Part shown: piece after piece, positions 5,656 through 9,129 of the stretch
How positions within the stretch are numbered: the stretch's first letter is position 1
How the letters are laid out: each line of letters starts with the position of its first letter
Virus record (IMG/VR): IMGVR_UViG_3300006802_000773
Span: 1-20,550 of that record
Strand: one strand, 5' to 3'
Source of the DNA: a virus
DNA: 20,550 bases
Program-made: the position numbers and the translations under genes
The notes under the pieces: generated by a model
What the model was told of the DNA's origin: nothing
The model's input: only the letters and a program-made list of their open reading frames with translations
Databases searched by the model: none

Positions 5656-5931
5656 ATGAGTATAAACAATAGACATTCTGTTGATCAGCAAAAGGTTCGT
5701 CGTTATGGACGTCATTACGGTTCAATTGATTTTGAATGTAATCAATCAATCGACGCAAATTTGTTTCAAAAATCACCGGAGCGTCCGGTCATTGGAACAT
5801 TTATGATTGATAATAAATCATTTGATCTTACATGGGACGAATTGGAACTTATCGAAGAAACGATGAAGACAGCACGTGAGACGACCATGAAGCGTTATCG
5901 TTTAGGAATGATGGGGAGATTGAGCAGATAA
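5656..5931 (+). CDS. Hypothetical protein (91 aa)
   Basis: ATG four bases after the methyltransferase stop. The N-terminal 25 residues are basic (QQKVRRYGRHYGS). The middle is mixed, and the C-terminal 40 residues form charged helices (WDELELIEETMKTAR, then KRYRLGMMGRLSR). No family is recognised. The stop overlaps the next start by one base (TAATG), implying coupled translation. Confidence 0.6.
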   Translation: MSINNRHSVDQQKVRRYGRHYGSIDFECNQSIDANLFQKSPERPVIGTFMIDNKSFDLTWDELELIEETMKTARETTMKRYRLGMMGRLSR

Positions 5932-6161
5932 TGGGGTTTCATCGTCGCAGTATTAACGTTGATCTAATTAGATCAGAATATTTGCGGCTAGGTTATGAAG
6001 GAATCGATAGACTTTTTAAGAAAGGAAGATATGATGTATTATCATTAAGTGATGCAAAGTCAGTTAAAATTCATGATATCTTCCTTTCTTACTTTGATTC
6101 TGAGCTAGATAAATGCAAGCATATTCATAAGATTCTATTTGATGAGATTAACGAAATCTAA
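5931..6161 (+). CDS. Hypothetical protein (76 aa)
   Basis: Coupled to the upstream gene by a TAATG overlap. The product starts MGFHRRSINVDLIRSEYL, is helical and charged, and has one Cys and several His residues near the C-terminus (DKCKHIHKI). No family is recognised. It is the last gene before a short non-coding leader at 6161-6230. Confidence 0.6.
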   Translation: MGFHRRSINVDLIRSEYLRLGYEGIDRLFKKGRYDVLSLSDAKSVKIHDIFLSYFDSELDKCKHIHKILFDEINEI

Positions 6162-7409: not shown

Positions 7410-7441
7410 TTTGGATTCGTACTTTTTTTCTCTTATCTTTA
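7410..7441 (+). promoter_or_regulatory. Bacteroidota-type promoter P4
   Basis: TTTG (7410-7413), 20 nt, TATCTTTA (7434-7441), nearly a copy of promoter P1 at 1871-1902 including the flanking GGATTCG and GTATAA. It would start a transcript near 7447, just before the structured region at 7461-7566, and so drive the phosphatase gene. Confidence 0.65.
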
Positions 7442-7460: not shown

Positions 7461-7566
7461 AAGTAAGAGCGAGTGAGTACGCTGTTAGGTTGGCATCAAG
7501 AAAAAGGGTTTGTAGTAAGGCCAGCATACCAGAAACCCCGAAACACCCATAAGCTCGCTCTTACTT
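7461..7566 (+). ncRNA. Candidate structured leader RNA closed by a 13-bp stem
   Basis: AAGTAAGAGCGAG (7461-7473) pairs perfectly with CTCGCTCTTACTT (7554-7566). Inside, GGGTTT (7506-7511) pairs with AAACCC (7533-7538). The loop of that hairpin contains GCCAGC (7520-7525), which can pair with GTTGGC (7489-7494); an alternative is GTACGCTG (7477-7484) with CAGCATAC (7522-7529), 7 of 8. Either inner pairing would make a pseudoknot. The 168-nt gap (7409-7576) has no gene, and the element starts about 14 nt after the expected transcript start. It is not a tRNA, and no known riboswitch or ribozyme core was recognised. The 3' arm ends ten bases before the phosphatase ATG with no T-run, so it acts as a leader rather than a terminator if it is functional. 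Confidence 0.5.
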
Positions 7567-7576
7567 TAAATAATAA

Positions 7577-8047
7577 ATGACGATGAAAAATAAAGTTGTA
7601 ATCTTCGATCTCGATGGCACATTGGCATTGATCGACGATCGTCGCAAATTAGCGACAAAGCCAGATGGCAAAATGGATTGGGATAAATTTTTCGATCCTG
7701 CGAATATTGATTTAGATTTGCCTAACGATCCAGTAATTCAAATGGCACAATCGCTTAAAGATTCTGGTAAAACTATTGTCATCTTTTCCGGAAGGAGTAA
7801 GGCGACCAAGGATGCTACTCGAAATTGGCTGAATCGCCACAATGTACCATTTGATATTCTTAAGATGCGTCCGACCGGGCACCCATGGGCATTTATGCCA
7901 GATGATAAACTTAAGCAAGGATGGCTTGATGATTTGTTTACCGATAAGTCAGATATTCTTTGTGTATTTGATGACCGACAAAAGGTAGTAGATATGTGGC
8001 GAGCAAATGACATTACTTGTATGCAAGTTGCACCAGGACAATTTTGA
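7577..8047 (+). CDS. HAD-family 3'-phosphatase (PseT/PNKP phosphatase-like)
   Basis: HAD motifs are complete: motif I FDLDGTLA (Asp11 nucleophile, Asp13), motif II IFSGRS (Ser71), Lys113 in the expected basic position, and motif III FDDR (Asp132/Asp133). The stretch VFDDRQKVVDMWRANDITCM plus the QVAPGQF end closely resembles the C-terminal phosphatase domain of T4 polynucleotide kinase, which removes 3'-phosphates from nucleic acid ends. There is no kinase P-loop, so this is the phosphatase alone (156 aa). A second ATG at 7583 is equally good as a start. It sits behind a promoter and a structured leader and directly before the UV endonuclease gene, which suggests a repair role. A nucleotide phosphatase of the same fold is the main alternative. 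Confidence 0.8.
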   Translation: MTMKNKVVIFDLDGTLALIDDRRKLATKPDGKMDWDKFFDPANIDLDLPNDPVIQMAQSLKDSGKTIVIFSGRSKATKDATRNWLNRHNVPFDILKMRPTGHPWAFMPDDKLKQGWLDDLFTDKSDILCVFDDRQKVVDMWRANDITCMQVAPGQF

Positions 8048-8073
8048 TTTTTGAGAAATAGTTATTATCTTTA
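8043..8073 (+). promoter_or_regulatory. Promoter P5 for uvsE
   Basis: TTTG (8043-8046), 19 nt, TATCTTTA (8066-8073). The ATG is at 8077, only three bases after the box, so transcription from here would start at or next to the start codon. The TTTG lies within the end of the phosphatase gene. Confidence 0.5.
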
Positions 8074-8076
8074 TAT

Positions 8077-9129
8077 ATGAGTGATTTAGTACAAGTCGGT
8101 TATGCATGTGTTAACATGACATTAACAAGCCGGCCCAAAAAGTTAGGCGGCCGTGTTACAACGTCTCGCGGTTGTCGCAAAGCGACATGGTATCCTACGC
8201 GTGATTTGCATAAGTTAGGTGAGCTAGCATTAGCCAATGCCAACGACTTGCTTATGTATCTCCGATGGAACGAAGAAAACAATATTCGCTTGTTTCGGCT
8301 AGGTTCTGAGCTTGTTCCATGGCACGACCAATTCGAGCTACATGAGCTACCGCAGTATGACGAGTTAGCAGATACGTTACGTATTGCCGGCGACTATGCC
8401 AAGCAGCATGGCCATCGTATTACGACACATCCCGGTCCGTTCCACGTATTAGGTTCGCCTACTCAAGCGGTCGCGGACAAGACTATCATCGGCCTCGAGC
8501 GCCATTCTGAGATATTCGATCTTATGGGGTTTGACCCGTCACCGCATAACAAGATCAATATTCATATCGGCGGCGCTTATGGTGACCATGAGACTACGGC
8601 CAAGCGATGGATTGCCAATTGGCAACGCCTATCCGATGCATGCAAGGCCCGACTTGTTATCGAGAATGACGACAAACCCAGTATGTACAGCGTTGTGCAG
8701 TTGTACGAGTTATTCCATCGAGAGATTGGTATTCCAATTACGTTTGACTATTTTCACCATACATTCCATACTGGTGGTTTATCCGAACGCGAAGCGTTAG
8801 AGTTAGCCGGCTCGACTTGGCCGGACGATGTCGTGCAGTGTACTCACTATTCCGAATCACGACGTGATGAGCAGACATTAGCTTTGCAACGTGTATGTGA
8901 GTCCCATGGCATTAGCATTGACGATATGCCCAATTGGCCGACATTTGCCAAGATGCATGAGCAGTTTCAGAAGATCAAGGCTCAAGCGCATTCCGATTAC
9001 ATTACCAAGCCTATCGACAGCTACGGCAATCGCATCGACGTCGTTGTCGAAGCCAAAGCCAAAGAGTTAGCCGTTTTACGGTATAAGAATGATGTAATTA
9101 AAGAAAATTCTAGATTGTTAGTTTCTTAA
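8077..9129 (+). CDS. uvsE: UV-damage endonuclease (UvsE/UVDE family)
   Basis: UVDE is a TIM-barrel enzyme that nicks DNA 5' to UV photoproducts. The family marks are in order: VGYACVN (7-13), RLFRLGSELVPW (71-82), ITTHPG (His118), NIHIGG (His163), VIENDD (Glu196), ITFDYFHH (Asp224, His227/228) and CTHYSES (His257). The VGYACVN start fixes the ATG. The residue two before His257 is Cys255, where many UVDEs have a Lys (reported as modified in the Thermus enzyme). About 350 aa is slightly longer than usual because of a C-terminal Lys/Glu-rich helix. Sampled stretches are about 50% G+C, against roughly 32-35% around it, with stronger use of C/G-ending codons, which suggests later acquisition. A phage copy would repair sunlight damage to phage DNA. 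Confidence 0.88.
   Translation: MSDLVQVGYACVNMTLTSRPKKLGGRVTTSRGCRKATWYPTRDLHKLGELALANANDLLMYLRWNEENNIRLFRLGSELVPWHDQFELHELPQYDELADTLRIAGDYAKQHGHRITTHPGPFHVLGSPTQAVADKTIIGLERHSEIFDLMGFDPSPHNKINIHIGGAYGDHETTAKRWIANWQRLSDACKARLVIENDDKPSMYSVVQLYELFHREIGIPITFDYFHHTFHTGGLSEREALELAGSTWPDDVVQCTHYSESRRDEQTLALQRVCESHGISIDDMPNWPTFAKMHEQFQKIKAQAHSDYITKPIDSYGNRIDVVVEAKAKELAVLRYKNDVIKENSRLLVS

Follow-up and report, generated by a model that had tools for sequence, protein, structure and literature searches.

Two stable RNAs of the bacteriophage T4 tRNA cluster, RNA C and RNA D (species 1 and 2), have no known function. GOLLD and ROOL are large phage or prophage RNAs found near tRNAs, and the type III antitoxin RNA ToxI is encoded as tandem repeats next to its toxin gene, with phage pseudo-ToxI serving as a decoy. 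Theta (HDV-like) ribozymes are gut-phage RNAs that set a precedent in phage tRNA loci, with cleavage sites no more than 5 nt from a tRNA 3′ end (PMC10879173). Here, we report a family of phage RNAs, one copy of which occupies positions 7461 to 7566 of a 20,550-nucleotide virus record (IMGVR_UViG_3300006802_000773, positions 1 to 20,550; hereafter, the window).

Like theta ribozymes, the family RNA is phage-borne, often beside tRNAs, compact, and pseudoknotted; unlike them, it keeps no fixed offset to tRNA ends and has no Rfam match. Theta and HDV-like ribozymes form a nested double pseudoknot in which a P3 hairpin lies between P2 and P1; this arrangement was not found here, where CAG abuts AACCC and leaves no room for the hairpin. 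T4 RNA C and RNA D are likewise small RNAs on the tRNA strand of a phage tRNA cluster (the family occurs on the same strand inside tRNA arrays, though the window itself has no tRNA); they were rejected as homologs, as R1/R2 had no match in the whole T4 genome (NC_000866) and there is no core motif in common. ToxI and pseudo-ToxI are also phage-made H-type pseudoknots, and a trans-acting decoy role is conceivable for the family RNA. Unlike ToxI, however, it is much larger, has an internal loop and extra arms, and occurs as one copy per locus among diverse neighbors, with neither tandem repeats nor a conserved adjacent gene such as a toxin. GOLLD and ROOL share the association with phages and nearby tRNAs but are several times longer, and no Rfam family matches the RNA described here. 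One of its three architectures (form c) combines a tRNA-like body with a pseudoknot, as do tmRNA and the Y RNA-like YrlA, but that body is Leu-like, and no tRNA body is present in forms a or b. No tmRNA was detected (ARAGORN, Rfam) in the window, in the other loci scanned, or among the Rfam matches, and YrlA (Rfam) gave weak subthreshold matches on ordinary tRNAs only.

At gathering thresholds, an Rfam 15 covariance search returned no match in the window, in keeping with the preliminary description of this DNA, which had recognized no known class. No family was assigned at gathering or permissive thresholds to the window, six short loci, L375, or Vibrio phage KVP40. Permissive Rfam scans of the window element, of permuted copies, and of the KVP40 copy gave chance matches only, and Rfam ribozyme families matched neither natural permutation; the sole exception was the tRNA model, which finds the form-c body (39.8 bits in L384). 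The open-access papers searched contained no description of the RNA. A large microbiome survey of candidate RNAs (PMC8040213) could include an unnamed overlapping candidate, and the HRIMA ribozyme-associated candidates described in PMC10085705 are a lead. With no Rfam 15 family and no description in the papers searched, we regard the predicted RNA as a new class, the novelty referring to the class and not to its function.

The window RNA

The window encodes baseplate proteins, UvdE, ClpP, and HSP20, and no tRNA was found in its 20.5 kb. The RNA and its immediate neighbors are laid out as follows.

7410–7441 (+): putative Bacteroidota-type promoter, TTTG (7410–7413), 20 nt, and TATCTTTA (7434–7441), read from the sequence
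7461–7473 (+): P1 5′ strand (closing stem), AAGTAAGAGCGAG, perfect 13-bp complement of 7554–7566
7474–7481 (+): junction, UGAGUACG; most relatives have UAGUGAAG there (alignment A1)
7482–7484 (+): P3 outer 5′ strand, CUG, partner 7530–7532; CUC/GAG in L219, L222, and L223 and CAG/CUG in KVP40
7485–7488 (+): P3 internal loop, UUAG side, opposite AUAC (usually AAAC)
7489–7494 (+): pseudoknot (P3 inner) 5′ strand, GUUGGC, partner 7520–7525; 111 distinct covarying helices among 156 elements
7495–7505 (+): linker AUCAA and conserved GAAAAA; optional P4 hairpin site, where permuted forms have their open ends
7506–7511 (+): P2 5′ strand, GGGUUU; sixth pair free in searches and covarying (UA/AU/CG/GC); AGCAUU/AAUGCU in KVP40
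7512–7517 (+): near-invariant loop RUAGUA, here GUAGUA; fixed in search patterns, GUAGUA again in KVP40, ACAGUA in RaK2 and phi10:1
7520–7525 (+): pseudoknot 3′ strand, GCCAGC, partner GUUGGC (7489–7494)
7530–7532 (+): P3 outer 3′ strand, CAG; runs directly into P2b, putative coaxial stack
7533–7538 (+): P2 3′ strand, AAACCC, forming a 6-bp hairpin with 7506–7511
7540–7548 (+): conserved strand GAAACACCC; GAAAnACCC in relatives, some with a hairpin inserted between GA and AA
7554–7566 (+): P1 3′ strand, CTCGCTCTTACTT, 13 Watson-Crick pairs with 7461–7473
7577–8047 (+): PNKP-type HAD 3′-phosphatase gene (PF25109, E = 2.5e-30; polynucleotide kinase PHROGs), a neighbor outside the RNA system

The segment at 7461–7566 (+) folds at −32.5 kcal/mol, against −21.3 ± 2.9 kcal/mol for shuffled sequences (z = −3.8; 0 of 200 shuffles as low). 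Its P1 arms, separated by 80 nt, are only modestly unusual alone (about 0.1 such repeats expected per window of Markov sequence), and the fold stands far above chance because its homologs covary (alignment A1), not by virtue of the P1 stem itself. In A1 (19 sequences), 93.9% of cells were paired (73% when shuffled; 56% or less in slid versions), changes on both sides of a pair were found in 74 cells (22 when shuffled), and P1 and the pseudoknot each had both-sided changes at 5 of 5 scored pairs. The preliminary description had drawn the 13-bp helix around 80 nt, the P2 hairpin (7506–7511/7533–7538, GGGUUU/AAACCC), and a loop pairing of 7520–7525 with 7489–7494; the coordinates of both helices hold, and the loop pairing can form. 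The CUG/CAG helix is an additional extension of that pseudoknot. Judged by comparison with relatives, 7461–7566 is a structured RNA in which both the predicted closing stem and the predicted pseudoknot are genuine.

A switch between mutually exclusive pairings had also been suggested, and this was rejected. The rival helix (7477–7484/7522–7529) was paired in 59.5% of cells versus 60.5% in shuffles, with a covariation score of 0.119 versus 0.120, so it is neither conserved nor covarying, whereas the conserved P2 and pseudoknot are compatible and coexist as one H-type pseudoknot.

Family extent, consensus fold, and architectures

Pattern TAGTAANGCCANCANACCAG was clean enough for a collection scan, whereas a 14-mer scan gave mostly chance matches. 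Two patterns yielded at least 217 stretches of viral contigs, and the first alone found at least 120 in viral contigs versus 15 in 84,980 bacterial and archaeal genomes; the RNA is enriched in phages. Requiring P2 and a partner for P3 left 156 elements with 111 distinct pseudoknot helices, and the full set comprises at least 176 elements, in 139 groups without DNA similarity. BLAST with the core found unannotated copies in isolated phages, mostly within tRNA clusters: Pectobacterium phage PM2 (T4-like), DU_PP_V and My1 (T5-like), a T5-like Proteus phage, and Rhizobium, Vibrio (~190 kb), and Xanthomonas (XaC1) phages. Later searches added Listeria phages A511 and P100, Providencia phage PSTRCR_127, a Zobellviridae phage, Vibrio phages qdvp001 and KVP40, Cellulophaga phages phi19:1, phi19:3, and phi10:1, Klebsiella phage RaK2, and Erwinia phages (phi19:3, phi10:1, and RaK2 were confirmed). 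The isolated carriers span Straboviridae, Demerecviridae, Herelleviridae, Zobellviridae, Pachyviridae, Assiduviridae, and jumbo phages. Covariance model (CM) searches gave one match per locus (92 in 92 of 98 loci; 72 in 72 of 80 loci), and R2 gave exactly one match in each of 10 of 15 named phages. No CM match was found in T4, SPO1, Aeh1, FelixO1, phiKZ, or crAss001, plasmids held no credible match, and a scan with a KVP40-like pattern returned none.

By comparative analysis, the predicted fold is shown to be an H-type pseudoknot, classical in the natural order of form b. Stem 1 is P2 (GGGUUN/NAACCC), and loop 1, in that order, comprises RUAGUA and about 2 further nt. P3 forms stem 2 and is made of CUG/CAG, an internal loop (UUAG/AAAC or a short variant), and mostly 5 to 12 variable pairs. 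On the continuous strand, 0 nt separate the two stems, with the AACCC of P2 contiguous with P3, and loop 3 consists of GAnAnACCC, the P1 arm, and the return strand. Because GGTT/AACC and TAGTA were fixed in the collection patterns, the apparent invariance of both is partly imposed. No such constraint was placed on the sixth P2 pair, the pseudoknot, P1, or the lengths of the spacers. That sixth pair was U-A in 77 elements, A-U in 64, C-G in 13, and G-C in 2. At the outer P3 pair, both G-C and C-G occur, complementarity of the outer CUG/CAG having been a selection requirement in the large sets; the CUC/GAG of L219, L222, and L223, which are BLAST matches chosen without that requirement, is independent of the selection. 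The KVP40 copy, a match to R2, has AGCAUU/AAUGCU as P2 and the outer CUG/CAG swapped to CAG/CUG.

Three architectures were assigned by a script rule (form a, 42 elements; form b, 110; form c, 22). Form a, which includes the window, is open at P1, and P1 is called a real helix there because 55% of the 40 copies tested exceeded the 95th percentile of mismatched controls. Form b is circularly permuted, so that CUGUUAGG-P3a comes after the ACCC strand, P1 is a closed hairpin, and both ends of the RNA lie at the linker; the permuted alignment (A2) was 97.1% paired, with 99 both-sided cells versus 29 shuffled. Since the closing P4 stem exceeded the 95th percentile of mismatched controls in only 18% of permuted copies, many of these lack paired ends of their own. 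In form c (22 by the rule; 28 loci inspected, in 16 to 20 unrelated groups), the permuted core takes the anticodon-arm position of a tRNA-Leu-like body, with acceptor AGUCAGG/CCUGACU, D-arm GCG/CGC, T-arm CAGG-UUCGAAU-CCUG, and A73. Its alignment (A5) had 99.8% of cells paired, and both-sided compensation was seen in the acceptor and T stems alike (C-G to G-C, G-C to A-U). A divergent tRNA-embedded copy, with acceptor, T-stem, and pseudoknot sequences of its own, lies at 490–680 of L439, which is from a contig assigned by binning to an unclassified bacterium (MAG SAT3048). The predicted fold is thus shown to be kept through change of helix sequence, circular permutation, and transplantation of the core into a tRNA-Leu-like body.

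Two larger insertions were noted, one common to the permuted copies L333, L356, and L374 (GACAGACCACGAGGUAAUUCUCUAGGAGUGCUG, in loop 3 downstream of P2b) and another to L331, L285, and L241 (GCUCUUGUACAAGC...GGUAGGCUAC); these may define subfamilies.

Linkage to tRNA genes

A tRNA gene was found within 1 kb of 72 of 176 elements (41%), against a background of 22% for random positions in these loci. All 327 tRNAs within 1.5 kb of an element were co-oriented with it; as nearby tRNAs are clustered, the independent unit is the 72 elements. Twenty elements have tRNAs within 300 nt on both sides, many of them within 6 nt, and the KVP40 copy fills the 103-nt gap between tRNA-His and tRNA-Cys. The other 59% have no tRNA within 1 kb in the stretch examined, many of the contigs being fragments. 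Terminator-like sites follow 4 of 152 elements (2.6%) versus 1.7% of random stretches, so they are not enriched.

In two copies, an intrinsic-terminator-like hairpin and U tract come directly after the pseudoknot (phi10:1, L486 1510–1625, by reading; and L432, after 9251), as would be expected for a free-standing small RNA gene.

Proposed role and competing explanations

We put at about 0.5 the probability that the family RNA works in trans as a free-standing small RNA of phages, a reading that draws on its covariation, its breadth, the single copy per record, the tRNA linkage, the lack of a tie to downstream genes, and the enrichment in phages. It would be an independent gene product, co-expressed with tRNAs or made from a borrowed promoter (in the window, that of the phosphatase gene), and tRNA-processing enzymes or the P1 stem may define its ends. 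The invariant loops GAAAAA, RUAGUA, and GAnAnACCC could form a binding surface, and the stable RNA would use this single-stranded invariant core to bind a conserved host component in trans, most likely one of translation or RNA metabolism. Takeover of the host, or evasion of tRNA- or RNA-targeting defenses, are ends that it might serve. Against action in trans, the window copy is a gene leader, which also fits action in cis; terminators are not enriched, 59% of copies have no tRNA within 1 kb, and only 18% of permuted copies have the P4 closing stem. An invariant unpaired core and tolerance of permutation would be equally expected of a ribozyme.

RNA families this broad have proved to act as ribozymes, as riboswitches, or as key RNAs of ribonucleoproteins. 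We raise tentatively, as a possibility that falls short of an even chance, that this is a new functional RNA class with a chemistry of its own or a conserved host target (a new ribozyme class or an RNA that engages the translation apparatus), carried as a portable, circularly permutable module by phages of at least three bacterial phyla and, in some lineages, taking the place of the anticodon arm in a tRNA-Leu-like body that could be aminoacylatable. Form c would then amount to a tRNA scaffold of natural origin or to a tmRNA-like molecule lacking an mRNA part. A conserved RNA of about 100 nt is unannotated in the well-studied phages KVP40, A511/P100, and RaK2 and the Cellulophaga phages, as well as in hundreds of environmental phages, and the old question of small stable RNAs in phage tRNA clusters becomes testable in laboratory phages.

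The main rival, which we consider rather unlikely, holds that the RNA represents a new class of self-cleaving (self-processing) ribozymes. It would cut leaders and the precursors of phage tRNAs, in the manner of the theta ribozymes that lie next to phage tRNAs and provide the precedent in phage tRNA loci (PMC10879173). Natural circular permutation, a compact pseudoknotted core of 75 to 100 nt, and many invariant unpaired bases are typical of self-cleaving ribozymes, as are peripheral hairpins that are optional, a spread independent of context, and a location close to tRNAs. However, processing of a whole tRNA array would need several copies and there is one per genome or locus, and the spacing to tRNA 3′ ends is variable, whereas theta sites lie within 5 nt. 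The acceptor and T stems of form c are kept by compensation, which indicates selection for an intact body, and neither natural permutation matches an Rfam ribozyme.

We think it improbable that, as its position had implied, the RNA is a cis-acting leader (a riboswitch, 5′ stabilizer, or translational control element) of its downstream gene, which in the window encodes the PNKP-type phosphatase. The window copy does lie between a putative promoter and the gene, and some relatives also directly precede start codons. The strong promoter of the preliminary description is plausible only as a Bacteroidota type, the TTTG-N20-TATCTTTA at 7410–7441 resembling what we take to be the consensus of that phylum; a sigma-70 scan found nothing there, and the region is nearly identical in L001. 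The RNA was correctly described as ending ten bases before the phosphatase start, P1 stopping 10 nt short of the ATG at 7577, and the start homologous to that of the L001 gene is probably the second ATG (7583).

Relatives of the window phosphatase are encoded in 74 loci (L001 to L074). The closest, L001 (87% protein identity), shares the upstream sequence and the TTATCTTTA motif, after which the gene follows directly and the RNA is absent; an R1/R2 search of the rest of its 23-kb record found no copy. Loss of the stem with retention of the gene, which had been named in advance as grounds for refutation, is what L001 presents, and it therefore refutes the cis link to the phosphatase but not the RNA. 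Seven other phosphatase loci (L035 to L037, L043, and L046 to L048) have a clear homolog of the RNA core (84% identity over 69 nt) with a closing stem wholly different yet paired (GGAAAGGGT/GCCCTTTCC). In these loci, the RNA lies within a tRNA array, apart from the phosphatase gene. Of the 75 sequences that have this gene (the window and L001 to L074), only 10 gave R1/R2 matches. Nor was there a steady association with any other gene or pathway, as the open reading frames downstream of 121 elements fell into 103 clusters of unrelated genes. Many copies lie between tRNAs or within tRNA-like bodies, and no conserved or covarying alternative pairing was found (59.5% paired). A link of the RNA to the phosphatase gene was rejected.

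Very improbable is a selfish mobile RNA cassette, a minimal insertion spread via homing endonucleases or tRNA-locus recombination and of little use to the phage. The clean presence or absence at one promoter-gene junction (against L001), the scattered locations, and the homing or HNH endonuclease genes near several copies would fit this reading. Against it, the RNA occurs once per genome, is strictly co-oriented with tRNAs, and has a strongly conserved core; its stems, the tRNA-like ones included, show compensation, and there are neither repeated termini nor a generally linked mobility gene.

Elsewhere in the window, the phosphatase gene adjoins that of the UV endonuclease UvdE (7577–9129), a possible nucleic acid repair pair. 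The longest inverted repeat (6017–6091; 24 nt, 92% complementary, 27-nt spacer) lies inside the open reading frame at 5931–6161. A phage-encoded 584-aa protein (99–1853) has GCTDPxAxNY..DDGSC repeats and a C-terminal T9SS type B sorting domain (TIGR04131, 41.6 bits, above the cutoff), as if it were phage-made cargo for a host type IX secretion system. The gene content, including this sorting domain, suggests that the window derives from a flavobacterial myovirus.
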